This document shows positions 11,039-23,347 of a stretch of DNA of 64,000 nucleotides, piece after piece. Both the position numbers and the translations under genes were made by a program. Origin of the DNA: Sphingopyxis bauzanensis (GTDB taxonomy: Bacteria > Pseudomonadota > Alphaproteobacteria > Sphingomonadales > Sphingomonadaceae). Under the pieces are notes generated by a model. It saw only the letters and a list, made by a program, of their open reading frames with translations, searched no databases and was not told the DNA's origin. Position 1 is the first letter of the stretch; the number at the start of each line of letters is the position of its first letter. The DNA lies in the NCBI RefSeq assembly GCF_002205675.1, contig NZ_NISK01000001.1:801054-865053 (forward strand), read 5' to 3'.

Positions 11039-11560
11039 ATGGGAAAATTACGCGAAGTCTTGAACGACATGGACGGGGGCAATTGCGCCCTGCCGCTGGC
11101 GCTGGAAGCGATGGGTGAACGCTGGTCGTTCATGATCCTGCGCGCGGCCTTTAACGGCGTCCATCATTTCGAGGAATTTCAGCAGGAACTGAACATCGCG
11201 CGCAACATATTGTCGAACCGGCTGTCACGGCTGGTCGACCACGGCATCATGGCGCGCGAAGTGATGACCGAAGACCGCCGCAAGGTGCGTTACCAGCTGA
11301 CCCAAAAGGGCATCGAACTGTTGCCCGCGATGATCGCGCTGCGCCAATGGGGCGAAAAATGGGGCGCCGGCGTGCCGTCTACCCCGGTGCTGGTCGATGC
11401 GCGCGACGAACAGCCGATCGGGCCGGTGACGCTGACCGCGCACGATGGCCGCGTGATCAACTACAAGGAATTGTTGTGGAAGCATCGCGCCGAACTTCAG
11501 CCGCTCGGTCAGGCGCGGGTCCGCGCCGAGGGTGGACTGGCGCCGGTGGCCGCCGAATGA
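11039..11560 (+). CDS. HxlR-family winged-helix transcriptional regulator
   Basis: A 173-residue DNA-binding protein. NCALPLALEAMGERWSFMILR near residues 15-35 carries the conserved Cys and GxRW motif of HxlR regulators, followed by FEEFQQELNIARNILSNRLSRLVDHGIM, the recognition helix region, and the RKVRYQLTQKGIEL wing. HxlR proteins often sense thiol-reactive or electrophilic stress through the N-terminal Cys. The C-terminal 60 residues extend beyond the minimal domain. The next gene starts 64 bases downstream in the same direction, so this may be the first gene of an operon with the LytS/LytTR pair. Confidence 0.88.
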   Translation: MGKLREVLNDMDGGNCALPLALEAMGERWSFMILRAAFNGVHHFEEFQQELNIARNILSNRLSRLVDHGIMAREVMTEDRRKVRYQLTQKGIELLPAMIALRQWGEKWGAGVPSTPVLVDARDEQPIGPVTLTAHDGRVINYKELLWKHRAELQPLGQARVRAEGGLAPVAAE

Positions 11561-11624
11561 CCGGCCGCGCCGGTATGCATCTTCGCGCGCGGAGCCGCTG
11601 ACCATCTCCACCCTACGGACCCCC

Positions 11625-12749
11625 ATGCCGCTGTTTCGCCTGTCTTCGCCGGGGCCTTTTTTCGACAATAAGGTCCGCGCCTTCTGGAATCTTCAGATAT
11701 TGGGCTGGGCCGCGTGGCTCGGCCTGCGTGGGGTGTCGGGGCTCGCCAATGGACAACCTCTCACCTTCTTGGTCCCGCAGACGATTTCGGCGATCACCGG
11801 CTTCTCGCTCTCGCTCATCCTTGCGGTGTGCTACCGCGCATTGATCAGCCGCCGACCGCTGCTGATGTGGGGGGTCAGTTTTGGCCTGTCGGGCATCGCT
11901 ACCGCACTATGGGCGTTTATCGATGCCTGGGTTGCGCAGATCCAGAATCCGAACAGCGAAGCGGGGTTTACCAGCCTGCTGCTTGGCGCGGTCTATATCG
12001 ACGCGACCTCGCTCGCGGCATGGTCGGCGCTCTATTTCGCGATCAACTATTTCCTCCAGCTTGAGGAACAGAATGACCGCGTTATCCGGCTCGAAGCGCA
12101 GGCAGCCTCGGCGCAGCTCGCGATGCTGCGTTATCAGCTCAACCCGCATTTTCTGTTCAACACGCTGAACAGTATTTCGACGCTGGTGCTGCTCAAACAG
12201 ACCGAGCCCGCCAATGCCATGCTGTCGAGGCTGTCAGCTTTCCTGCGCTACACGCTCGCCAATGAACCCACCGCGCAGGTCACGCTGGCGCAGGAGATCG
12301 AGACGCTGAAACTCTATCTCGACATCGAAAAAATGCGTTTCGAAGAGCGGCTGCGCCCCCATTTCGCTATCGACCCGGTGGTTGCACGCGCCCGATTGCC
12401 CTCGCTGCTGCTGCAACCTTTGGTCGAAAACGCGATCAAATATGCGGTCACGCCGCAGGAAGACGGCGCCGATATAACGATTTCGGCACAGCTGGCCGGT
12501 CAAAATGTTCGGATTACCGTGTCCGACACCGGGGCGGGATTGTCAGCCGACCGCGCGGACCCCACCACGGGCCTTGCAACGGAATCGACCGGCGTGGGTT
12601 TAGCCAATATCAGGGACCGTCTGGCGCAGGCTTTCGGCGACCAGCACCGGTTCGATGCCCAACGCGGCGCTGATGGCGGGTTCACGGTGATTATCGAGTT
12701 TCCGTTTCAGCCCGATGGGCAAATGACGATTGGAACCGAACGAACATGA
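11625..12749 (+). CDS. LytS/YehU-type sensor histidine kinase
   Basis: A 374-residue membrane kinase. Four hydrophobic segments fall between about residues 18 and 150. A short coiled region (LEEQNDRVIRLEAQAASAQLAMLRYQ) leads into the His_kinase domain, with LNPHFLFNTLNSIS carrying the phospho-accepting His. The ATPase part shows PLVENAIKYAV (N box), VSDTGAGLS (G1 box) and GVGLANIRDRL (G2 box). This is the compact kinase class that pairs with LytTR regulators. The input signal is unknown. The chosen ATG at 11625 begins a normal membrane-protein N-terminus; upstream in-frame codons overlap the HxlR gene. Its end overlaps the regulator gene by 4 bases. Confidence 0.9.
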   Translation: MPLFRLSSPGPFFDNKVRAFWNLQILGWAAWLGLRGVSGLANGQPLTFLVPQTISAITGFSLSLILAVCYRALISRRPLLMWGVSFGLSGIATALWAFIDAWVAQIQNPNSEAGFTSLLLGAVYIDATSLAAWSALYFAINYFLQLEEQNDRVIRLEAQAASAQLAMLRYQLNPHFLFNTLNSISTLVLLKQTEPANAMLSRLSAFLRYTLANEPTAQVTLAQEIETLKLYLDIEKMRFEERLRPHFAIDPVVARARLPSLLLQPLVENAIKYAVTPQEDGADITISAQLAGQNVRITVSDTGAGLSADRADPTTGLATESTGVGLANIRDRLAQAFGDQHRFDAQRGADGGFTVIIEFPFQPDGQMTIGTERT

Positions 12750-13552
12750 CGATCAGAACCATCCTGGTGGATGATGAGAAACTGGCTACCCAGGGCCTGC
12801 AACTGCGGCTGGAACCGCATACCGATGTCGAAATCGTCGACACCGCGCAAAATGGTCGCGAGGCGATCCGCAAGATCAAGACCCACAAGCCCGATCTGGT
12901 GTTCCTCGACATCCAGATGCCGGGCTTCGACGGATTTTCGGTGATTCAGGGACTGATGGAGGTCGAACCGCCGCTGGTCGTGTTTGTCACCGCTTACTCG
13001 GATCATGCGATCCGGGCCTTCGAAGCGCAGGCGGTCGATTATCTGGTCAAGCCGGTCGAGCCCGAGCGGCTCGCCGACGCGCTCGATCGGGTGCGCCAGC
13101 GCCTCACCGAGAAGCGCGGCGTGGCCGAGGTCGAACGGTTGAAAACGGTTCTCGCCGAGGTCGCTCCCGATGCAGTCGATGATTATGACGCCGAAACGCA
13201 GCCGGATGCGCATGCCGCCGACCGCTATGAAAAGATGATCAACATCAAGGATCGCGGCCAGATCTTCCGCGTCGATGTCGACAGCATCGAACGCATCGAT
13301 GCCGCGGGCGATTATATGTGCATCTACACTGCCGACAACAGCCTGATCCTGCGCGAGACGATGAAGGATCTGGAAAAACGGCTCGACCCGCGCAACTTCC
13401 AGCGTGTCCACCGTTCGACGATCGTCAACCTGTCACAGGTCAAGCAGGTCAAGCCGCACACCAACGGAGAATGTTTTCTGGTGCTCGGATCGGGCGCACA
13501 GGTGAAGGTGAGCCGTAGCTATCGCGACGTGGTGGCAAGGTTCGTTCACTAG
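12746..13552 (+). CDS. LytTR-family response regulator
   Basis: A 268-residue regulator, partner of the kinase encoded immediately upstream (ATGA overlap). The receiver domain starts TIRTILVDDEKLA, has the phospho-accepting Asp in LVFLDIQMPGFDG near residue 54, and the conserved Lys in VDYLVKPVEP near 105. A 40-residue linker leads to the C-terminal LytTR DNA-binding domain (DRGQIFRVDVDSIERIDAAGDYMCIY ... FQRVHRSTIVNLSQVKQ). LytTR proteins bind direct repeats and commonly control envelope or surface functions. It converges on the multihaem operon, but nothing in the sequence shows that it regulates it. Confidence 0.93.
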   Translation: MTIRTILVDDEKLATQGLQLRLEPHTDVEIVDTAQNGREAIRKIKTHKPDLVFLDIQMPGFDGFSVIQGLMEVEPPLVVFVTAYSDHAIRAFEAQAVDYLVKPVEPERLADALDRVRQRLTEKRGVAEVERLKTVLAEVAPDAVDDYDAETQPDAHAADRYEKMINIKDRGQIFRVDVDSIERIDAAGDYMCIYTADNSLILRETMKDLEKRLDPRNFQRVHRSTIVNLSQVKQVKPHTNGECFLVLGSGAQVKVSRSYRDVVARFVH

Positions 13553-13642: not shown

Positions 13643-16600
13643 TCAGTTCGCGTAAACCAGCGGCGGGCGCCACGCGTCCTGATCGACCTCGTCGCGGACC
13701 TTGTACACCAGCCCCTTGCTGTTGAGGAACAGCTTCTCCATTTCAGGCCGGGTGAACGGTCGCGATCCGAGACGCCCGAACACCGCCATCTGGCCGCCGG
13801 TTTCGTCGACCCCGCGGTCGCGGTCTAGCCCCTTCGACAGCGCGAGCGCGGGCGATGGGGTTTTGGCCCAGGCGATCAGTTCGGGGGTCGGTTTGGGCGA
13901 GAAGCCGTAGAGGCCGGGGTTGTCGGGGCTGGTCAGCTGGATCACCTTGATGCCGCCGCGCCCGTCGGCGACATAACCGAATAGCGACGCGTTGGTCGAG
14001 GCGACGATAACGTCCTCGGCGTCGGTCATTGCACCGCCAAAGGTCAGCCCCGGCCAGACGATCGGCGCCGCGGGGCGGGTTACATCGACGATGACGAGGC
14101 CGTCGGCCTTCGCCGCGACATACATATAGGTGCGTGCCAGGTAGATTTTGCGCGCATTGGCGAGGCGGACGGTCCCCTCCGGCACCGCGACCGGCACCGC
14201 CAGATTGGTGACGTCGAACAGCTTCACCCCCTCGGCGTCGGTGACCCACAGGTAGCGGAACTGCACCGCACTGGCGCGCGCGTCAGTCAGCGGCAGTTGC
14301 GCGGTCACCTTGGGTGCAAGCGGCGTTGAGAGGTCGAGCACGACCAGTCCGGCGTCGGTGGTGATATAGGCCATGCTTCCCGCCAGCGTGACATGCCGCG
14401 CCCCCGCCAGTACATTGCCCTCGTTCCACGTCAGCGCGCGCGTCAGTTTGTTGTTGCGCAATTCGCCGTCGGCCATCGTGTCAATGTCGACGAGCACCAG
14501 TCCCTCGACGCTGTCGGTGATGACGGCGTAGCGGTAGATGTCGTGCATCACCTGTTCGTGGTTCTCGGGGAAATTCTTGACGATATTCTCGTTGCGGCTG
14601 ACGCTGATCGGCTGCGTCGTTGCGATTGCCATGCAGGTCGCATTCTTCGTCTTCACATGCGTGTCATGGCCGAGCGCCGAGAACGGCGCGCGGATGATGC
14701 GTTCGGAGAAACCCTTGTTGCCGATCGACGCGACGTCATAGATACGAAAGCCGCCGCGTCCTTCGGCAACGAACATATATTCGCCGCGCTGTTGGAGGCA
14801 ATTGACCCGGCCGCTGGTGTCCTGGACGATATTCTCAAACTCTTCGAGCGCCTGCGTTTCGCCCGATCCCTTTTTGTCGAAGGTCTTGCCGCGCACCCAT
14901 TTCTTGAGCTCGCGGCCGTTCTGGTCGACGTGCAGCTTCCAGTAGTCGGGATAGCTATATTTGTGGAGGTAGCTGCCGATCACCGCCTGCGGCTCGTCCC
15001 ATTCGGTGACGCGGGTGGCCTGGAAACCATCTTCCATTCCCGACCAGACGTTGAGGCCGACGAAGTTTACGAAGTTGGTGCCGAGTAACATCAGCTGCGA
15101 CATGATCGCATTATTGTCGTCACTCGCCGACACGTGGCAGTCGCTGCACTGCTTGGTTTCGGAACGGCGCACGGTGTGCGGGAAATGTGGCGCGAAGGCC
15201 TGGCTTGAATAACCCGCCGACGAGATCGGCGGCTGCTGCACATAGATACGCTCGCGGTTGATGTTGGTCGACGACAAGATCAGCGCCGAGGTCGATCGGA
15301 CGGGCGTGATGATGCCGCGGACCTCGCCGTTCGGACCGGGTTCGCCGGGCTTGGTCAGCTGGTGCCGGCCAAGCTGGAACATCTCATCGCGCGCCACTTG
15401 CGGGTTGTAGGTCGCGAAGTTGCGTGTCTCCTCGCCCTCGAAATGGTGCATCTTGGTTTTCCAGTTTGCCTCGATCGGCAAATGGCAACCGCCGCAGCTC
15501 GTCGTCCACGACAGGTGGCAGGTAAAGCAGGTCAGCTTGTCGTCGCCATGCGCGCGGTCTTCCTTCGCGACCCCCGGCCCCCACTCAAACTTGCCGTCGT
15601 CGCTGCCCGCGCGCGCCATCAGCTTGGCGCGCGCCGCCTTGGCGTTGAAATGCGGCCCCGGCGTCACCGCCTGCTTGACCAGGCTGACCTGCCATTCGAG
15701 CTTGGGATCGACGATCGAGCGCTGGATCAGCCCGATCACCTCGGCATCGTCATTATACTGGAATTCGAAGCGGCGCCGTCCGTCGGGGTTACGCAGCAGC
15801 GCGAGATTGTTGCCCTGCGGCCGCGCCGCGACGTTCGACGTGAGCAAGTTGGGGAAGGCGTCGGCAGTGCCGTGGCAATCCTTGCAGCTGATCTCGACCG
15901 CATTGGCCACTTCGCCCTGGATATAGCCATTGCCATGGCTGTCCTGCGCGAAGTGGCAATCGGCGCATTGCATCCCCTTTTCGGCGTGGATGTCCATCAT
16001 ATGGACCGACTTGCCGGGGTTGATACCGGGCGGCACGAACTTGCCTTCGACCCCCGGTTTGCCGGGATCGGCGCTCGACAGGCACAGGTCGCGCTCCTTG
16101 GGATCGGTGTAATAGCTGCAGCTTTTGCGCCATTTTTCGGGATCCCGGGGGTCGATGATGTTCGCGGTATCGGTGCCGTAGGTCGACATATTGCCGTCGG
16201 CGCTGAGCAGATTGCCATTGCGGTCGCGCTTGAAGATGCCGCGGAAGTTCCAGCCATGGCCGTGATAATCGGCGAACTGTGTATCCTTGTTGCTGTCGTT
16301 GACGTCATAGACGTCGCGCAGAAACTCGACGTCGGCCCATAGTCCGCGCGTCGCCGCGGCCTCGGGGTTGCGTTCGAGCACCGCATGCGCCTCGGCCGCG
16401 GTCGGATAGCGCTGCTGCTTGTACTTTTTCTGATAGTCCTCGTCGCTCATCCCCGGCGGGCGCGGCGCGCTATTGTCGGGGCCGGGCCACATCTGAGGCG
16501 CGTCGGATTCATAATCCCACATCGTGTAGCCGAGATACGAGTTCAGGAAGATGTTCGGCTGGTGCATGTGGCACGTCATGCACTGCGAGGTCGGGATCGC

Positions 16601-17974
16601 GCGGGTGAAGGCGTGGCTGATCGGATGCCCCGATTCGCGGCGCGGGCGTGGTTCGCGTTGCGGCGCGCCGGGCGCTGCGGCGGCTGGGTCGATCAACCCG
16701 CCATGTCCGGTTTCGCCAACAAAGCCGTCGTCGGGGGCCATATGCGATGCCTCGGAATGGCCGCCACCCGCAAGCTTCTTGTCGCCGTCATGGCCGCCGC
16801 CAGTCCAAAGCTTCTCGCGGATCGTCGGATCGACGGTGTCGGTTTCGCCGTCGCGGCCATATTTAGCATAGGTCAGGCTATGCCGCGGCTCGCGGTCGTT
16901 GGCATAGACGACGTGGCAGCCCGAGCAGCCCGAATGGCGGTAATCGCCGGGCTGGTCGTTCGTCCCCATGAACCACATCAAGGGATCGTTGAGACGCGTC
17001 TTGTGGATGTTGAGCACCGGGATCGCGACGCGCAGTCCCGTGCCGGGGCCGCGGTTCGACTGTTTGAGGTCGGGGCGCCCGGGCTCCTCGAGCCGCTGGA
17101 TGCTGCCGGACGGGTTGGGCAGGCCGATTTCGGGGAATTGCGTCGCGATGTTGCGCCCACCGCGTTCGAAGACGCGGAACACGTCGCCCGGCGGGATCAC
17201 GCTCCAGCGCGGCAGCGGATACATTTTGGCCAGTGCGCCGCGCTTTTTCTCGTCGTCGGTCAAGATCTTGTCGAACCCGAAGCTGGGCTTGCACGCCTCC
17301 TTATATTCCTCGGCGGTCAGCCGCGAAGAGGGCGAAAGGATGCAGGCGGCCTCGCCAGTGCGCGTGTAAGCCTCTCCAAACACGTAATTCTTATACGGCA
17401 CGATGCCATTGTTATACGCCGCGCCGCCCCACAGCATCGCCGAGGTCGACATCAGCGAGCGTTCGGTGGCCTCGATCACTTCGAGGTGGCACGCGCCGCA
17501 CGCCTCGCGCGCGACGCGGTAGTCGCTGGGGTTCACGAAGCGAATGAATTCGGGCGATTCCTTGTTGAGCAGGGTGTAGCTGCGCTGCGGGTTCGCCGAG
17601 CTGTCGTGCCAGGCGCCGGGCAAGGTCGGCTGCGGATGCGCGAGCGCCATCACCGCCTTGTTGGTGGCGTGCGTGTACCCGAGCGAGGGGGTGCCGACCT
17701 GGCTCGCGTCGCCGCCGTGGCAATCGGTGCAGCCCAAACGCACGGCAGGGGTCGCGTGCATCGACGGCTGGTCGGTGCGCGTGTGGCAGCTGTAGCAGCC
17801 CTCCGACTTTGCGCTGACATCGGCCTCGCTTTGTTCGCGCGGCGCGGGCGGCGTGAAGCGATAGGTGATCTTGAGCGGCTTCTCTTCCTCGGCGGCGCGA
17901 ACCACGCTGGCGCCAAAGGCGGCGCACATCGTGACGAAGGCCAACAGGGCAAAGAGTTTGCGCATCATCATCAT
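13643..17974 (-). CDS. Exported decahaem cytochrome c with C-terminal LVIVD beta-propeller
   Basis: A 1443-residue protein with a Sec signal peptide (RKLFALLAFVTMCAAFGASVVRA, cleaved near residue 28). Ten CXXCH haem-c motifs lie at about residues 60, 82, 159, 350, 465, 670, 697, 816, 827 and 943. Two of them (CFTCH and CGGCH) are only 11 residues apart. The C-terminal third (about 1065-1355) holds six LVIVD-type repeats such as GLVIVDVTRPAAPIV and AGLVVLDLSTPLAPKV, which normally build a beta-propeller. There is no lipobox. The gene is last of four on the minus strand, and its first ATG shares one base with the upstream stop. Four consecutive ATG codons (17974 to 17965) leave the exact start uncertain. 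It probably carries electrons across or outside the outer membrane. I see no motif match to MtrC or OmcA. Confidence 0.85.
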   Translation of the reverse strand: MMMMRKLFALLAFVTMCAAFGASVVRAAEEEKPLKITYRFTPPAPREQSEADVSAKSEGCYSCHTRTDQPSMHATPAVRLGCTDCHGGDASQVGTPSLGYTHATNKAVMALAHPQPTLPGAWHDSSANPQRSYTLLNKESPEFIRFVNPSDYRVAREACGACHLEVIEATERSLMSTSAMLWGGAAYNNGIVPYKNYVFGEAYTRTGEAACILSPSSRLTAEEYKEACKPSFGFDKILTDDEKKRGALAKMYPLPRWSVIPPGDVFRVFERGGRNIATQFPEIGLPNPSGSIQRLEEPGRPDLKQSNRGPGTGLRVAIPVLNIHKTRLNDPLMWFMGTNDQPGDYRHSGCSGCHVVYANDREPRHSLTYAKYGRDGETDTVDPTIREKLWTGGGHDGDKKLAGGGHSEASHMAPDDGFVGETGHGGLIDPAAAAPGAPQREPRPRRESGHPISHAFTRAIPTSQCMTCHMHQPNIFLNSYLGYTMWDYESDAPQMWPGPDNSAPRPPGMSDEDYQKKYKQQRYPTAAEAHAVLERNPEAAATRGLWADVEFLRDVYDVNDSNKDTQFADYHGHGWNFRGIFKRDRNGNLLSADGNMSTYGTDTANIIDPRDPEKWRKSCSYYTDPKERDLCLSSADPGKPGVEGKFVPPGINPGKSVHMMDIHAEKGMQCADCHFAQDSHGNGYIQGEVANAVEISCKDCHGTADAFPNLLTSNVAARPQGNNLALLRNPDGRRRFEFQYNDDAEVIGLIQRSIVDPKLEWQVSLVKQAVTPGPHFNAKAARAKLMARAGSDDGKFEWGPGVAKEDRAHGDDKLTCFTCHLSWTTSCGGCHLPIEANWKTKMHHFEGEETRNFATYNPQVARDEMFQLGRHQLTKPGEPGPNGEVRGIITPVRSTSALILSSTNINRERIYVQQPPISSAGYSSQAFAPHFPHTVRRSETKQCSDCHVSASDDNNAIMSQLMLLGTNFVNFVGLNVWSGMEDGFQATRVTEWDEPQAVIGSYLHKYSYPDYWKLHVDQNGRELKKWVRGKTFDKKGSGETQALEEFENIVQDTSGRVNCLQQRGEYMFVAEGRGGFRIYDVASIGNKGFSERIIRAPFSALGHDTHVKTKNATCMAIATTQPISVSRNENIVKNFPENHEQVMHDIYRYAVITDSVEGLVLVDIDTMADGELRNNKLTRALTWNEGNVLAGARHVTLAGSMAYITTDAGLVVLDLSTPLAPKVTAQLPLTDARASAVQFRYLWVTDAEGVKLFDVTNLAVPVAVPEGTVRLANARKIYLARTYMYVAAKADGLVIVDVTRPAAPIVWPGLTFGGAMTDAEDVIVASTNASLFGYVADGRGGIKVIQLTSPDNPGLYGFSPKPTPELIAWAKTPSPALALSKGLDRDRGVDETGGQMAVFGRLGSRPFTRPEMEKLFLNSKGLVYKVRDEVDQDAWRPPLVYAN

Positions 17975-19905
17975 CAAAAACTCAAAATCACATTGGCGAG
18001 GATCGACACATAGGCGTCGTTCTTCTGCTTGTTATCGAACAGATCCTTGAACCCCTTGCCGGGGATCAGCACCGCGCCGCTGAGACGTCCGACGATGTTC
18101 TGCGTCGCCTTCGGCCGCCAGATCGTCGCGACCGACAAGTCGAAGCCAATATCCTTGGGGATCGATCCTTCGGTGCGCAGCGCCTGCAAGGACGAGGTAT
18201 TTTCGAACCACAGATGATTGGCGTTGGCGCTGACGCGAAATTCGGGGGTCAGGTCGAAATCGGCGCCGACGCCGACGAACACGGTGCCGGGGTTGTTGAA
18301 ATTCGACTGCCCCTCTTCCTTCGAAGAGCGTAGCGAATTCAGGATGCCGTTGCGGCCGTTGATCGAAATGACGCGGCCGCCGCCAGCAAAGGGGATCGTC
18401 TGGCGGATCCAATAGCTGGTATCGGCGCCGCCGAAGATCGGGTTTTCGAAAATCGCGTCGAAGCCGCCCTCGGTGTTGTTATACGGATCGCCGTCGCCGG
18501 TCGCGTAGAGGCCCGAGAGACGGAAGCGCATCCAGTCATAGTCGTAGCTAAGCTCGACTGCGCCAAAGCCCGCACGAATTTGCGCCGGTTTGCTGGTGAA
18601 GAAGCTGTTCCGGTCTTCGCCGAGCGCCGCATAGAAGCTTGCGGTCAGATTGATCCGCCCGATCCGTCCGTCGGCGCTGTAACCAAGATAAACGACATCA
18701 TATTCACGCCCGCGCAGGTCGCCGAGCAGCGCCGGACGCACCGGGAAGCCGTTATGGTCGATCTGCACGTCGTTCTTTTCGCGGTTCATATTGTAGGTCA
18801 CGCTGACCTGGCTGGTCAGCCCGACGACCGGAAAATCCTGGCGATAGAGGTTGGCGGTCAGGACGAAGTCGTCGCGCGGAGACTGGGTGATGTCGTTCAA
18901 ACCCGAATTGGTGTCTTTTTCGAGCCGCCAGAAGGCCGCGAAATTATATTGGAAACGGTTGTTGTCGCGATTGCCGAAAAAACGCAGCCCGAGCTGGCTG
19001 TCATTGAACAGGAAGCCGCGAAAATCGCTCTGGAACGGCTGGATACCAAGCCGCACCGAATAAAAGTCATAACGGTCCGACGTGTTGCCGAGATGCTTGT
19101 CGACGAAGAATTCCTGCACCCCCAGGAACGAGTCGTAGCGATGGCTCGCCTTCGACGGGCGCACGTCGAGGACGCGCCGTTCGGGGACGTCGACATAATT
19201 GGCCTGATAGGCAAGGGTGACGCGATATTCGATGTCGGGCGGCTTGAACGCAGTCGACCCCTTGATCAGCGCCGCGCCGACGATGAAGGTCTGGGCAAAG
19301 ACAAAGCTGCGGTCCTTGCCGAACACGTCGAGGCTGCCAGGGCGTTCGGTGGTCTGAACCCCAACGGGGATCGGGAAGGTGCGCGGTTCGAGCACGGTGT
19401 CGGACACCGCATTGGCGACGATGAACCAGTCGTCGCCCTTGATCGGCAACCACGGCACCTTGCTACGGTCGATCGCGCGGTCGCCCTTATAGGTGTTCTG
19501 GTGATAGGGGTCGAACCAGCGTTCCTTGACCACGCCGAGCGACTCGATGAGGCGCCAGCGGTCGGGGACCGGCAACTGGTCCTCCATTCCCGGAAACGCC
19601 TGCGGTGGCGGCGGGCGCAGCGCGCCGACATTGTCCTGGCTGAGCGCGTCGGGCAGGTCGGGGCGATAGCCGGGACGGCGTCGCCCTTCGATGATCTGGG
19701 TGACCAGATCGTCCTTGATCATGTCCTGCCAGTCGACGGGCGGCGGCGGCGGAATCAGTTCGTCGGCGGGCTGTTCGGTAGTCGCAGCGTCCCCGGCAAC
19801 TGGCGGATCTTCGGGCGCGGGTGGCGGCGGCGTCACCTCGGCCCCAGGCGCGCCCTGCGCCGCGAGGCTCGCGATGATCGGCCAAAGGCTGCCCCCCGCC
19901 ATCAT
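17974..19905 (-). CDS. Putative outer-membrane beta-barrel partner of the multihaem cytochromes
   Basis: A 643-residue protein with a weak N-terminal export signal (SLWPIIASLAAQGAPGA) and a Pro-rich acidic segment to about residue 60. Several hundred residues of alternating aromatic and polar strands follow (for example RVTLAYQANYVDV, YDFYSVRLGIQPF, FQYNFAAFWRLEKD). It ends in ILANVILSF, the terminal Phe expected of barrels assembled by BAM. It has no Cys-His haem motif. The length and position between two multihaem cytochrome genes suit the MtrB/PioB role of a barrel sheathing a cytochrome, but no family signature was recognised. It lies 3 bases after the lipoprotein gene, so it belongs to the same operon. 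Confidence 0.7.
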   Translation of the reverse strand: MMAGGSLWPIIASLAAQGAPGAEVTPPPPAPEDPPVAGDAATTEQPADELIPPPPPVDWQDMIKDDLVTQIIEGRRRPGYRPDLPDALSQDNVGALRPPPPQAFPGMEDQLPVPDRWRLIESLGVVKERWFDPYHQNTYKGDRAIDRSKVPWLPIKGDDWFIVANAVSDTVLEPRTFPIPVGVQTTERPGSLDVFGKDRSFVFAQTFIVGAALIKGSTAFKPPDIEYRVTLAYQANYVDVPERRVLDVRPSKASHRYDSFLGVQEFFVDKHLGNTSDRYDFYSVRLGIQPFQSDFRGFLFNDSQLGLRFFGNRDNNRFQYNFAAFWRLEKDTNSGLNDITQSPRDDFVLTANLYRQDFPVVGLTSQVSVTYNMNREKNDVQIDHNGFPVRPALLGDLRGREYDVVYLGYSADGRIGRINLTASFYAALGEDRNSFFTSKPAQIRAGFGAVELSYDYDWMRFRLSGLYATGDGDPYNNTEGGFDAIFENPIFGGADTSYWIRQTIPFAGGGRVISINGRNGILNSLRSSKEEGQSNFNNPGTVFVGVGADFDLTPEFRVSANANHLWFENTSSLQALRTEGSIPKDIGFDLSVATIWRPKATQNIVGRLSGAVLIPGKGFKDLFDNKQKNDAYVSILANVILSF

Positions 19906-19908
19906 CGC

Positions 19909-21888
19909 CTACAGCCCGTCGCAGACATTTTGCTGCGCCGTGTCGAGGAACGGCGCGAACGGGCAGCTGATATAGCGCAGTCGCACCGTCCGGTTGTCGG
20001 CGAGTGTCACGACGACGCGGTCGGAGCGGAGGGTGGCCGGGGCATTGCCGATGCTGCCGACGCGCGCGCCGCCGTTATGCGCGCCGAGAAAGCTGATCAT
20101 ATCGTCCTGATCGATGCCGTCGCCCGACACCCCGATCGCCCCGACCAGCTGGTTGCCGCGATAGATGGGGACCGAGCCGGGAAAAATCTGGATGCCGTTC
20201 TGCAGCCGGTTCTGCCCCGCCGCGACGTCGGGCAGCGTCGTACAGCGTTGCGGCGTATCGGTCGGACTCGCACCCGAAATGAAGCCCAGATGCGCGCCGA
20301 GATTACCGATGATGAGTGCCGATTGCAGCCCGGTCGAGAAGGGATTGAACTGCGCGATCGGACGCGACAGCGGCCCCGGCGGACGTCCTACTTCGCCATC
20401 GGGGAAATAGGGTCGCGAAAGATTTCCATTGGCGCGGTCGGAGAAGGCGATCGTGCCGGTGAGCGCGGCGGGATCGTTCAGGAAGGTGCGCGTCGCGGGG
20501 ACAAACTGGCGGATGTCGGCGCTGGCATTGGCGCCGAGCTCAGTCGCGGCCTGTGCGCCCGAGAAAAAGGCCGCGGTGCGTGCTTTTTGCAGGCTGACGT
20601 CGGTCCCGAAAATCGGCGCGTCGGGCGAACGGACGATGCCGAGCACCGATCCGTGCGTGTCGACGATACTGATCGTCACCTGCGCACGGCTGTCGAGCGG
20701 GCGCCGGATCTGCGCGCGGGCGCGGCTCATCACCGTGAACGCCTCTTCGAGCACCGCGCGCGCCTCGGCCTGCGTCAGCGGCGCGCCGTTGGTCGCGCCG
20801 TCGGTCCCGGCGCGCAGCGGATAGCGGTTGGTGCCGCTGCCGTCGGTCAGAACAAAGGCATCGCGGTTCGAAAATTCGGCGGCAGTCGAAGCGCGAATGC
20901 CCGACGCTTCGCTGCCATAGGCGGTCCCCGCGGTCACCGCGGCATTGGCATAGCCGATCACCGCGACCAGACTGCCCACGCTGCCGTTGAGGCTAGCAAA
21001 GCTCGCGCCGCCGCTGGTCATCACCCCGGCAAAACTCGCGTCGGAAAAGCGCAAGCTGGTCCCATCGACGGTGATCTTGTCGGCGGTGATCGTCGAGGGC
21101 GCTTCGAACCCGCGCGTTCCCGCCAGCGCGATGAATTCCTCGGGGTCATTGTCGATGTCGAGGATATTGGGATCGCTGCCATAGACACCGTCGCCCATCA
21201 CCCCGATGCCGCCGACGAGCACGCCATTCTTGTAAAGCGGCAGCCCGCCCGGATCGGCGGCGAGGCCGAGCGGGGAGCGTTTCGGGCCGATCAGCGCTGC
21301 GCCGCCTGCCGCGCCGAAACGGGCCGACAGGTCGCTGCATGGCAGCTGGCTGAACTGCACCCCGAACAGCGGGCCGCTTTCGAGCCCGACGGTCGTCGGC
21401 GCGGGCGGGAAATGTTCCTGGACGATCTGGCTGGCGGTGCGGGTCGAAAAGGCGTTGCCGCCGCTCGACAGATACGCACCCGTCACCGCCTTAGCGATCG
21501 CGCCGCTTTCGGCTGGAAAAGTGACATTCTGCGCGTCGATGTTCACGCCGTTCGGCGCGCCGGCGGTCGTCGCCGTCGCGCGCGCGCCGGTCATGCGGAA
21601 CACGCCGAGGACATTGCCGACGCGGTCGGTTACCGCGATCACCGAGGGCAGGCCGCGCGCTTGCGCTTCCGCTATGCCTTGCGCCAGCACGCGTTCGACG
21701 TCGCTGGTTGTCAGCGCCTCGGCGGCGGGCGGGGTGTAGAGGCCGCCAGTCGGGGTCGGGGTGGGTGAGGGGGTCGGACTTGGCGTCGGCGTGCTGCCTC
21801 CGCCGCCTCCACCACCGCACGATGTCAGCAGCAACGCCCCCATCGCGGCAAAGGCCGCTGAGCGGAAAAACTGGCTCCTGTTTCGCAT
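19909..21888 (-). CDS. Lipoprotein with two GlcG/HbpS-like (DUF336) domains
   Basis: A 659-residue predicted lipoprotein. The signal peptide ends in LLLTSC, placing the acylated Cys near residue 24. A Gly run and a Pro-Thr-Ser linker to about residue 48 would keep it extended from the membrane. Two related halves follow, each starting with a helix-rich VERVLAQGIAEAQARGLPSV or ARAVLEEAF segment, then a strand such as VIAVTDRVGNVLGV or TISIVDTHGSVLGIV. Both end with a PLYKNGVLVGGIGVMGDGV type block (near 255 and 595), the hallmark of GlcG/HbpS proteins. Some HbpS-type proteins bind haem, so this one may deliver haem or sense redox state for the cytochromes; that is inference. It sits 4 bases after the pentahaem gene. 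Confidence 0.8.
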   Translation of the reverse strand: MRNRSQFFRSAAFAAMGALLLTSCGGGGGGGSTPTPSPTPSPTPTPTGGLYTPPAAEALTTSDVERVLAQGIAEAQARGLPSVIAVTDRVGNVLGVFRMTGARATATTAGAPNGVNIDAQNVTFPAESGAIAKAVTGAYLSSGGNAFSTRTASQIVQEHFPPAPTTVGLESGPLFGVQFSQLPCSDLSARFGAAGGAALIGPKRSPLGLAADPGGLPLYKNGVLVGGIGVMGDGVYGSDPNILDIDNDPEEFIALAGTRGFEAPSTITADKITVDGTSLRFSDASFAGVMTSGGASFASLNGSVGSLVAVIGYANAAVTAGTAYGSEASGIRASTAAEFSNRDAFVLTDGSGTNRYPLRAGTDGATNGAPLTQAEARAVLEEAFTVMSRARAQIRRPLDSRAQVTISIVDTHGSVLGIVRSPDAPIFGTDVSLQKARTAAFFSGAQAATELGANASADIRQFVPATRTFLNDPAALTGTIAFSDRANGNLSRPYFPDGEVGRPPGPLSRPIAQFNPFSTGLQSALIIGNLGAHLGFISGASPTDTPQRCTTLPDVAAGQNRLQNGIQIFPGSVPIYRGNQLVGAIGVSGDGIDQDDMISFLGAHNGGARVGSIGNAPATLRSDRVVVTLADNRTVRLRYISCPFAPFLDTAQQNVCDGL

Positions 21889-21892
21889 GATC

Positions 21893-23347
21893 TTACCGTA
21901 GCGCCCGGATCGCGCGCACTGCGCTGCCGAGCGACGCCTGGAATTCGGCGGGTTTATAGGCGTTGGGATCCTTCACCGCGGCATAGGCCCGGTCGATATC
22001 GCCGCGGATGCCCGCTGCGGCGCCGACGGTGACGCGCCCCGACGACACCATCGCATTGAGCAAGGTATCGACCCCCATCACCGCCTGCTGCGACCCCGAA
22101 TAATCGGTGAAGCGGTCGCCGATTGCTTTCGCCGAAATCGCGTCGACCATCGCAAAGGCGTCGGTCCCCGTGAAGCTGCGCGCCGCAAAGGCGCTCTTGA
22201 GCGCCGCGACGGTCTGCGACAACTGCGCCGCGGCGGCGACCGCGCTGGGGCGGTCAGTCGCCATCGCCTTGTGGAACGCCGCGGTGCGCGCCGCGAGCTG
22301 GTCGGCGAGCGCGGGAGCGGCCAGCCGCGCGGCGGCGGCGAGCATGATCAGATTTTCGTCATTATAGGGCGGCATCCCCTCCGGAATTTGCCGCCCCGGA
22401 TTGTCGACGCCAGTCCGCACCGGCTTCGCCTGATCGAAAATGCGGCGATGGCAGCTGTGGCAATCGAGGAAATAGAATTCGGGGAACATCCCTTCGGTCC
22501 CGCGCCGCGACTGGAACAGCGCCAGGCTGCGCTCGATCGCGGTCGCCTGCCCCACCGCCCACATCTGGACATGGTCGGTGCGCGCGTTGGCGGCGCCGAA
22601 TTTGCGCCAGCCATAATCGGCATCCTCCTGATGATGCGCCTGCAGCGAGGAGAAGAGGTCGAGCTCGAACGCGATGCGCGGATGCCCCGCCGCCATGATG
22701 CGGTGGGTGACGAACTGCCCGTCGCTGGCCGACCCGAAATGACAGTCGACGCATACCCCGGCGCGGACCACCGGATCCTCCAGCTTTTTCAGCCCCGCCG
22801 ACAGGTTGGCGAGATGCTTCTGGCGCATTTCGGCGTCGGGATTGGCGCTGGTCCCGACCCCGGCATAATGGCTCGCCAGCCAGCCGCCCGCCGGCCCATG
22901 ACAGGATTCACACCCGACACCATCCTCGGTCGGCACGCTGCCGCGCATCGCGCCCTTGGCGGCGACCGCACCGGCGGTCGCGTGACAGCCGATGCACATC
23001 TGCGCGGTGGCGGGATCTCCAATGCCCAGGTTGCGCGCAATGAACTGGCTGCGATTGTTGCTGAGCACCGCCCAGGCGCGGCTGTGCGCGCCGCCGGGGG
23101 TCGAGGGTTCCTGCCATTTCATCAGCTCGTCCTGGCGCACGACGGTCCCGTCGCCCTCCATCCGGCCGTGGCAGGTCGATCCGGCGCACGACGCAACGCC
23201 GGTATAAACTGCGGCGCTTTCACCCTGCGAGCGGGCGGGGGGTGCGAAGACAAACGCCGCCGCGGCCAGCGCGAGCAGCATCAGCGCCAGAGCCGCAAAC
23301 GCAGCCCAAGGCCGATCGCCGCGCTCCTTCCCAGCGTGCGTCGTCAT
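21893..23347 (-). CDS. Membrane-anchored or periplasmic pentahaem cytochrome c (c554-like)
   Basis: A 484-residue protein with one hydrophobic N-terminal segment (WAAFAALALMLLALAAAAFVF, residues 14-34) that is either an uncleaved anchor or a signal peptide. Haem motifs are CAGSTCH (54-60, an unusual CX4CH), CIGCH (118), CESCH (146), CVDCH (199) and CHSCH (296). The CHATAG, GCESCHGPAGGW and DCHFGS surroundings resemble the cytochrome c554 superfamily. The last 170 residues lack haem and are Ala-rich helices. It is the promoter-proximal gene of the four, 54 bases after gdhA, and would pass electrons from the inner membrane to the barrel-decahaem pair. A palindrome ATTCGCGAAT overlaps the start codon. 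Confidence 0.83.
   Translation of the reverse strand: MTTHAGKERGDRPWAAFAALALMLLALAAAAFVFAPPARSQGESAAVYTGVASCAGSTCHGRMEGDGTVVRQDELMKWQEPSTPGGAHSRAWAVLSNNRSQFIARNLGIGDPATAQMCIGCHATAGAVAAKGAMRGSVPTEDGVGCESCHGPAGGWLASHYAGVGTSANPDAEMRQKHLANLSAGLKKLEDPVVRAGVCVDCHFGSASDGQFVTHRIMAAGHPRIAFELDLFSSLQAHHQEDADYGWRKFGAANARTDHVQMWAVGQATAIERSLALFQSRRGTEGMFPEFYFLDCHSCHRRIFDQAKPVRTGVDNPGRQIPEGMPPYNDENLIMLAAAARLAAPALADQLAARTAAFHKAMATDRPSAVAAAAQLSQTVAALKSAFAARSFTGTDAFAMVDAISAKAIGDRFTDYSGSQQAVMGVDTLLNAMVSSGRVTVGAAAGIRGDIDRAYAAVKDPNAYKPAEFQASLGSAVRAIRALR

Follow-up and report, generated by a model that had tools for sequence, protein, structure and literature searches.

A predicted electron conduit in Sphingopyxis bauzanensis

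A 64,000-nucleotide stretch of the Sphingopyxis bauzanensis genome (contig NZ_NISK01000001.1, positions 801,054 to 865,053; hereafter, the window) carries four closely packed minus-strand genes coding for a five-haem cytochrome c, a GlcG/HbpS-type protein, a predicted outer-membrane beta-barrel, and a large decahaem cytochrome with LVIVD repeats. Members of the host family are mainly aerobic heterotrophs, and the locus raises the question of whether such proteins could carry electrons across the cell envelope and, if so, what would connect them to the inner membrane. The genome comparisons described here point to a two-membrane electron conduit in which these four genes encode a new, interchangeable outer module and the parts together pass electrons through the envelope, whether outward or inward, a reading that can be assigned a probability of about 0.62. 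An earlier note on this DNA, made from the sequence alone, had suggested a candidate new conduit. The porin-cytochrome idea stands; the claim of novelty has to be narrowed, as the cluster is only the outer half of the system and the inner half, encoded elsewhere in the genome, fits the description of PCC4, a putative conduit proposed from genome comparison (He et al. 2017, PMC5566968). The outer module of the window is thus a new variant end on an already proposed, itself putative, type of conduit.

Co-inheritance of the outer and inner modules

The inner module consists of a protein of ~800 residues that combines a pyridine-nucleotide/FAD domain, two cyclic-nucleotide-binding (cNMP) domains, and 4Fe-4S; a b-type membrane protein of ~280 residues; and a protein of ~580 residues that carries ten CXXCH motifs as well as an FHA domain (the FHA-decahaem protein), whose gene was used to track the module in genome surveys. 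These surveys covered a class-wide draw of 385 genomes, a phylum-wide draw of 398, and a host-family draw of 149. In the class-wide draw, 30 genomes match the decahaem/LVIVD protein, 29 after the removal of one weak match (G022; 26% identity, query positions 665-949). All 29 encode the FHA-decahaem protein, as opposed to 8 of the other 356 genomes (Fisher test, 1e-36, not corrected for phylogeny); if G022 were kept, the former count would be 29 of 30. In the host family, the decahaem gene is present in 53 genomes and the FHA-decahaem gene in 52, with 52 genomes encoding both and the FHA gene found in none of the other 96; the sole mismatch is a genome of 67% completeness. This co-occurrence cannot be put down to linkage, because in 22 of the 52 genomes the two genes are located either at least 90 kb apart on one contig (11 genomes) or on different contigs (11 genomes, some of which may be draft artefacts); the distance is within 10 kb in 26 genomes and 10 to 90 kb in 4. 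The five-haem protein is encoded in all 37 class-wide genomes that have the FHA gene, two of them showing a weak match. Pairwise distances of the decahaem, barrel, GlcG, and FHA proteins correlate over 24 loci (Spearman coefficients of 0.54 to 0.80, 0 of 500 permutations in each case), as would also be expected from shared descent. Judging from these sequence surveys, the inner and outer modules are strongly co-inherited.

Outside the host family, both modules form one cluster, in which the inner genes continue the outer four. A scan of named genomes, one per species, yielded at least 585 confirmed stretches, and all counts for named loci given here rest on the best 80 of these. All three inner genes are found downstream of the outer ones, on the opposite strand, in 35 of the 80 loci and on the same strand in 1. 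In a genome of another class (L192), the inner genes and window-type outer genes are arranged in one run; there, the five-haem gene is followed (L192:1-4031) by three more genes, one of which codes for a protein of 442 aa that ends in YTF and looks like a barrel by eye. Locus L194 (genome G617) contains the four outer genes, and the inner module was not found within its 20 kb, the only stretch searched. In S. bauzanensis, the inner trio is diverged and located on another contig (L142), at least several hundred kb from the outer genes. A large glycine-rich repetitive protein of 2164 aa is encoded near this trio (L142:10-6504, plus strand).

PCC4 has been described as comprising a porin, cytochromes of 4, 5, and 10 haems, a five-helix membrane protein with two WX3HX13H motifs and an SGXXG motif, and a PF13247 (Fe-S) protein, along with other redox domains (PMC5566968, in the portion of that account available to us, as for all further statements on it). 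The inner module matches the inner part of this description, although the likeness is one of description, not of sequence: it includes a PF13247 protein (6.2e-10 in the host), a membrane protein with the respective motifs, a 10-haem cytochrome, and, as its partner, a cytochrome with 4 CXXCH motifs. The host membrane protein has both WX3HX13H motifs and SGLYG (SGXXG); both WX3HX13H motifs are also present in each of two relatives, together with SGAFG in one and TGIYG in the other. A simple hydropathy scan finds 3 helices in the host protein and 4 and 5 in the two relatives, compared with five in the PCC4 counterpart. Ten CXXCH motifs are found in the host FHA protein and in each of 23 relatives, and a profile search of solved structures with this protein returns FHA domains and multihaem cytochromes.

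Alternation of outer modules

Two unrelated outer cytochromes alternate as partners of the inner module. Six of the 8 class-wide genomes with the FHA gene and without the decahaem gene encode a different conserved five-CXXCH protein. In G060, G105, G379, and G120, its gene is located beside the inner genes, together with a gene for a ~530-residue protein that ends in KF and is barrel-like by eye (in G120, the stretch examined showed no FAD/cNMP gene); in G052 and G258, it is on another contig. As for the remaining two genomes, the contig in G025 ends inside the GlcG gene of a window-type cluster, and G224 is a fragment. The other five-CXXCH protein is found in just one of the 29 decahaem genomes (G160). 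A profile of this type, built from four proteins taken as PCC4-type by their parts list, gave no hit, at E values up to 1e-30, in 28 of the 29 decahaem genomes or in the host. The two barrel types show no relation in alignment comparison (hhalign probability of 5%); when the profile of the other five-haem protein was compared with those of the two window cytochromes, the similarity was weak and haem-motif-like.

The arrangement in the four genomes listed above fits PCC4, again by description only (PMC5566968). According to the same account, PCC4 lacks an extracellular cytochrome and has a porin of its own together with a periplasmic cytochrome of 5 haems; the matching five-haem type was not found in S. 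bauzanensis. The system in the window instead has the GlcG protein, an unrelated barrel, and the large decahaem/LVIVD protein, and in the host it is unlinked from the inner module. Such an outer module is absent from the available portion of PMC5566968, whose supplementary tables may list relatives. One further observation is that in G160 (L203; also G160:C2:169853-173004) a second window-type five-haem gene is located beside the other five-CXXCH gene.

Distribution and organization of the outer module

The four open reading frames are located where the earlier note had placed them, and their coordinates bear out the dense packing that it described, with gaps of 4 bases between the five-haem and GlcG genes and 3 bases between the GlcG and barrel genes; the TGA stop codon of the barrel gene shares one base with the first ATG of the decahaem gene (the overlap would be 4 bases if an upstream TTG served as the start). 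The decahaem gene is present in a single copy in the host genome. A pair of genes on the plus strand (window positions 11532-13552), named by reading the sequence as those of a histidine kinase and a LytTR-type response regulator, converges on its end.

The four genes were found to co-occur well beyond this genome, the outcome that the earlier note had required of its reading. Among the 80 named loci, the barrel is encoded in 78, the GlcG protein in 71, and the five-haem protein in 66, and the order five-haem, GlcG, barrel, decahaem is kept in 66 of the 67 loci with at least 5.8 kb of upstream sequence (the 13 loci with less were left out; this limit was set after the data had been seen). All of these best 80 loci come from Sphingomonadales or from organisms labelled just as Proteobacteria or Alphaproteobacteria, with Sphingopyxis closest, so the host had been correctly recognized as a sphingomonad. 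In the phylum-wide draw, the decahaem gene was detected in 11 of the 398 genomes, 8 of them from the host family, 2 from other families of the class, and 1 from another class.

A search of a plasmid collection returned 15 records with matches to the decahaem gene. Two of these are weak matches in Gloeothece; the other 13, namely Sphingopyxis indica NZ_CP076395 and 12 Sphingobium records, are replicons of 0.4-1.3 Mb filed as plasmids, which suggests that the outer module may be mobile.

Protein components of the outer module

The five-haem cytochrome (positions 21893..23347, minus strand; 484 aa) is an exported protein and a proposed periplasmic carrier. It resembles cytochrome c554, both in Pfam (PF13435, 3.9e-11) and in a profile search of solved structures (1bvb, 2.1e-7), and has about 97 residues per haem. 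The total of 15 haem c motifs counted previously (5 plus 10) holds for the ten CXXCH motifs of the decahaem protein; the five-haem protein has four CXXCH motifs and one CX4CH motif, CAGSTCH. The CX4CH spacing is kept in all 15 alignment rows that cover this site, one of them the window protein (the alignment has 17 rows, two of which do not extend that far), so that a total of 15 haems, one of them at an atypical site, appears reasonable. In 2000 shuffled copies of each of the two cytochromes, CXXCH occurred on average 0.015 and 0.007 times, with a maximum of 1.

The GlcG/HbpS-type protein (19909..21888, minus strand; 659 aa) matches PF03928 in four stretches (1e-22) and contains a lipobox-like LTSC sequence at residues 21-24, in agreement with its earlier description as a lipoprotein. 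In 14 loci outside the host family, the GlcG gene is preceded by a gene for a small protein (139-220 aa by open reading frame call; e.g., L051:13008-13667, minus strand), which had no match in Pfam or NCBIfam in the one copy scanned.

The third protein (17974..19905, minus strand; 643 aa) contains no cysteines, has no match in Pfam at E values up to 1, and in a profile search finds no solved structure at the same threshold. Its AlphaFold2 model has 18 strands (mean predicted local distance difference test [pLDDT] score of 68; predicted template-modelling score of 0.67), with about 120 N-terminal residues of low confidence. The model is closest to AlgE (Z score of 26.6, root mean square deviation of 3.2 over 360 residues, 15% identity) and also resembles Occ channels; in the absence of a Pfam match, this likeness indicates a shared fold rather than demonstrated membership in the family. 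MtrB is outside the 50 structure matches listed for this model, which is not evidence of its absence. The C-terminal residue, Phe in the host, is Phe or Tyr in 29 of 29 aligned copies. As the model aligns to outer-membrane barrels, this protein is predicted to be an outer-membrane barrel, as the earlier note had supposed.

The decahaem cytochrome (13643..17977, minus strand; 1444 aa), the proposed outermost redox protein, has a signal peptide, recognized by eye, ten CXXCH motifs, and C-terminal LVIVD repeats (PF08309, 1.9e-11). Haems are sparse in this protein, at about 144 residues each. No known family of soluble reductases is matched above its cut-off in Pfam, in family models, or among solved structures. 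A search of the PDB with the model of the haem region found nothing at E values up to 0.001, and the best solved-structure match of the protein profile (E value of 0.09) was rejected as not credible. All 27 decahaem relatives show a local match to ExtM (best 6e-25). The ExtM model scores 68 bits against the window protein, with a cut-off of 800, and the best stretch covers 51 residues around two haem motifs; the model of the hexadecahaem cytochrome HmcA is also matched by 9 of the 27 relatives, so part of the likeness to ExtM may reflect general likeness of haem motifs. A literature search, which did not extend to subscription journals and preprints, found no paper that pairs an LVIVD or FHA domain with a multihaem cytochrome; LVIVD repeats and cytochromes are mentioned together in one paper, on Methanosarcina.

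Relation to other conduits

The general plan of a periplasmic multihaem cytochrome, a barrel, and a large exported multihaem cytochrome is the same as in MtrCAB, MtoAB, and PioAB. Nevertheless, the earlier impression that the proteins are distinct from these families is supported by scores below the cut-offs for all three components: the barrel has no match to MtrB_PioB (PF11854) at E values up to 1; the five-haem protein scores 16.4 bits against the MtrA/DmsE model TIGR03508 (cut-off of 192.2); and the decahaem protein scores 13.6 bits against the MtrC/OmcA-type PF22113 (cut-off of 30), with TIGR03507 not listed for it. An MtrB_PioB match on another contig of the host genome (19.2 bits, cut-off of 23) was rejected. 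The 18-strand AlgE-like barrel and the ~144 residues per haem further set the window system apart from MtrCAB. In Cyc2, a cytochrome is fused to the porin, unlike the cysteine-free barrel described here. PCC3, which has been reported in an Erythrobacter (PMC5566968), resembles the present system in having a porin, multihaem cytochromes of both the exported and the periplasmic kind, and a membrane protein, which in PCC3 has five helices. However, the median haem numbers of the PCC3 cytochromes are 34 and 21, at 22-39 residues per haem, as compared to 10 and 5 haems at about 144 and 97 residues per haem in the window.

The Geobacter extHIJKLMNOPQS cluster encodes a porin, 5-, 12-, and 10-haem cytochromes, an Fe-S protein, cytochrome b, and a rhodanese-like protein (Jahan et al. 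2018, PMC5877670, likewise available in part), a parts list similar to that of the present system, and ExtM provides the local match noted above. The differences include the GlcG protein in place of the rhodanese-like protein, the ExtM score far below its cut-off, and the FHA and cNMP domains, which do not appear in the available portion of the Ext account.

Proposed pathway and alternatives

In the proposed pathway, electrons from NAD(P)H would enter the cytoplasmic FAD/4Fe-4S protein with its two cyclic-nucleotide-binding domains and pass through the b-type membrane protein to the membrane-anchored FHA-decahaem cytochrome. From there, they would be transferred by the five-haem cytochrome to a barrel/GlcG complex at the outer membrane, then to the outward-facing decahaem/LVIVD protein, and finally to an extracellular acceptor, with iron, manganese, humics, or quinones as candidate substrates. 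The conserved non-motif histidines, 14, 6, and 10 for the 10, 5, and 10 haems of the decahaem, five-haem, and FHA-decahaem proteins, respectively, fit bis-His electron carriers; those of the decahaem protein were counted in its haem region. Contacts between these parts, the surface location of the decahaem protein, and electron transfer across the outer membrane are inferred.

The decahaem protein might be brought to the surface by type II secretion, which places MtrC-type cytochromes on the cell surface. Genes of the type II secretion system (T2SS) adjoin the cluster in 9 of the 26 class-wide decahaem genomes outside the host family (Pfam-checked in 3); for 8 of these 9, extra flanks had been taken because such genes were already seen there, and the other genomes were viewed in stretches without such added flanks. 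In the host, a T2SS pseudopilin gene is located about 20 kb from the inner module.

Several observations weigh against an electron conduit of this kind. The decahaem protein is not wire-like: it is too haem-sparse to serve as a wire inside the barrel. The earlier idea that its N-terminal region might sit inside the barrel is not supported by the ~144 residues per haem and the 18 strands of the barrel, compared with the 28 predicted for MtrB (PMC5877670); the AlphaFold2 model of the haem region is unusable (pLDDT of 49) and too poor to decide. A plug in the barrel formed by part of the five-haem or the decahaem protein would be one guess at the crossing. In its predicted structure, the barrel resembles AlgE and Occ barrels, which are exporters or substrate channels. 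Locus L116 encodes the barrel and the decahaem protein and has neither GlcG nor five-haem gene upstream in 10 kb free of N, and no convincing GlcG lipobox was found outside the host family with a simple pattern, many starts there being uncertain. The 80 named loci, the window, and L184-L194 showed no T2SS genes; besides, such genes are common, with the Escherichia coli and Caulobacter controls also matching. Linkage also enters the class survey to some degree, as the profiles were built largely from neighbouring copies, the FHA profile mostly from those beside decahaem genes. Most of the hosts are aerobes that are not known to transfer electrons outside the cell, and the case for a conduit is built on sequence and predicted structure.

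Within the overall probability given above, the same conduit could also run inward, with Fe(II), Mn(II), or reduced organics outside the cell as donors to the decahaem protein, which would hand the electrons on to the inner membrane. For hosts that are mostly aerobes, oxygen would be available as the sink. The inner module also fits the description of PCC4, and a flow of electrons inward, into the quinone pool, has been hypothesized for PCC4, albeit with no functional test in the available portion of PMC5566968. On the other hand, the chain ends, on the inner side, in an oxidoreductase of the NAD(P)/FAD type that contains 4Fe-4S domains, and the His spacing of the PCC4 membrane protein has been compared (PMC5566968) with that of ferric reductases and NAD(P)H oxidases, which run outward. 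The outward direction is modestly favoured, and inward flow, taken by itself, is unlikely.

It is likewise unlikely that the system is an Ext-like reductase of oxyanions or small molecules, with the barrel as a selective channel, the decahaem protein as the terminal reductase that receives its electrons from the inner module, and no conductive complex in the outer membrane. The similar parts list, the lowering of selenite and tellurite reduction upon loss of the Ext porin (PMC5877670), the ExtM matches in 27 of 27 relatives, and the resemblance of the barrel model to AlgE/Occ channels are all consistent with such a function. However, the low ExtM score and the HmcA matches hint at general haem-motif likeness, the LVIVD domain would suggest a surface protein, and the decahaem protein has no obvious open catalytic haem, because all ten of its motifs are CXXCH and the conserved non-motif histidines exceed the haems. 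Finally, the parts might form a periplasmic respiratory system, in which the barrel would pass only substrate or product and no electrons would cross the outer membrane. This would agree with signal peptides that by themselves lead to the periplasm and with an outside location of the parts that is a prediction. It is nevertheless improbable, given that in other genomes the inner module occurs with another cytochrome, unrelated to the first and likewise next to a barrel-like protein, a pattern more readily understood if barrel and cytochrome act as one functional unit.

Implications

The two-membrane conduit suggested here would include seven genes and 25 predicted haems and, judging by the decahaem gene, is encoded in roughly one in three of the host-family genomes sampled (53 of 149). 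A tentative generalization, for which the odds are somewhat below even, is that of a plug-and-play chain in Alphaproteobacteria, in which the cNMP/FHA inner module would drive either of two unrelated outer modules, and the decahaem/LVIVD module would serve as a surface-exposed, NAD(P)H-linked arm in a large share of aerobic sphingomonads, with the crossing at an 18-strand AlgE-like barrel, of a class that is not known to hold cytochromes. The relatives of the decahaem protein include those from deposited strains of Sphingopyxis, Sphingobium, and Erythrobacter, which makes the system directly testable. If electrons do leave the cell by this route, many ordinary aerobic bacteria of soil and water would be capable of extracellular electron transfer, and the alternating outer modules would show how such conduits evolve.

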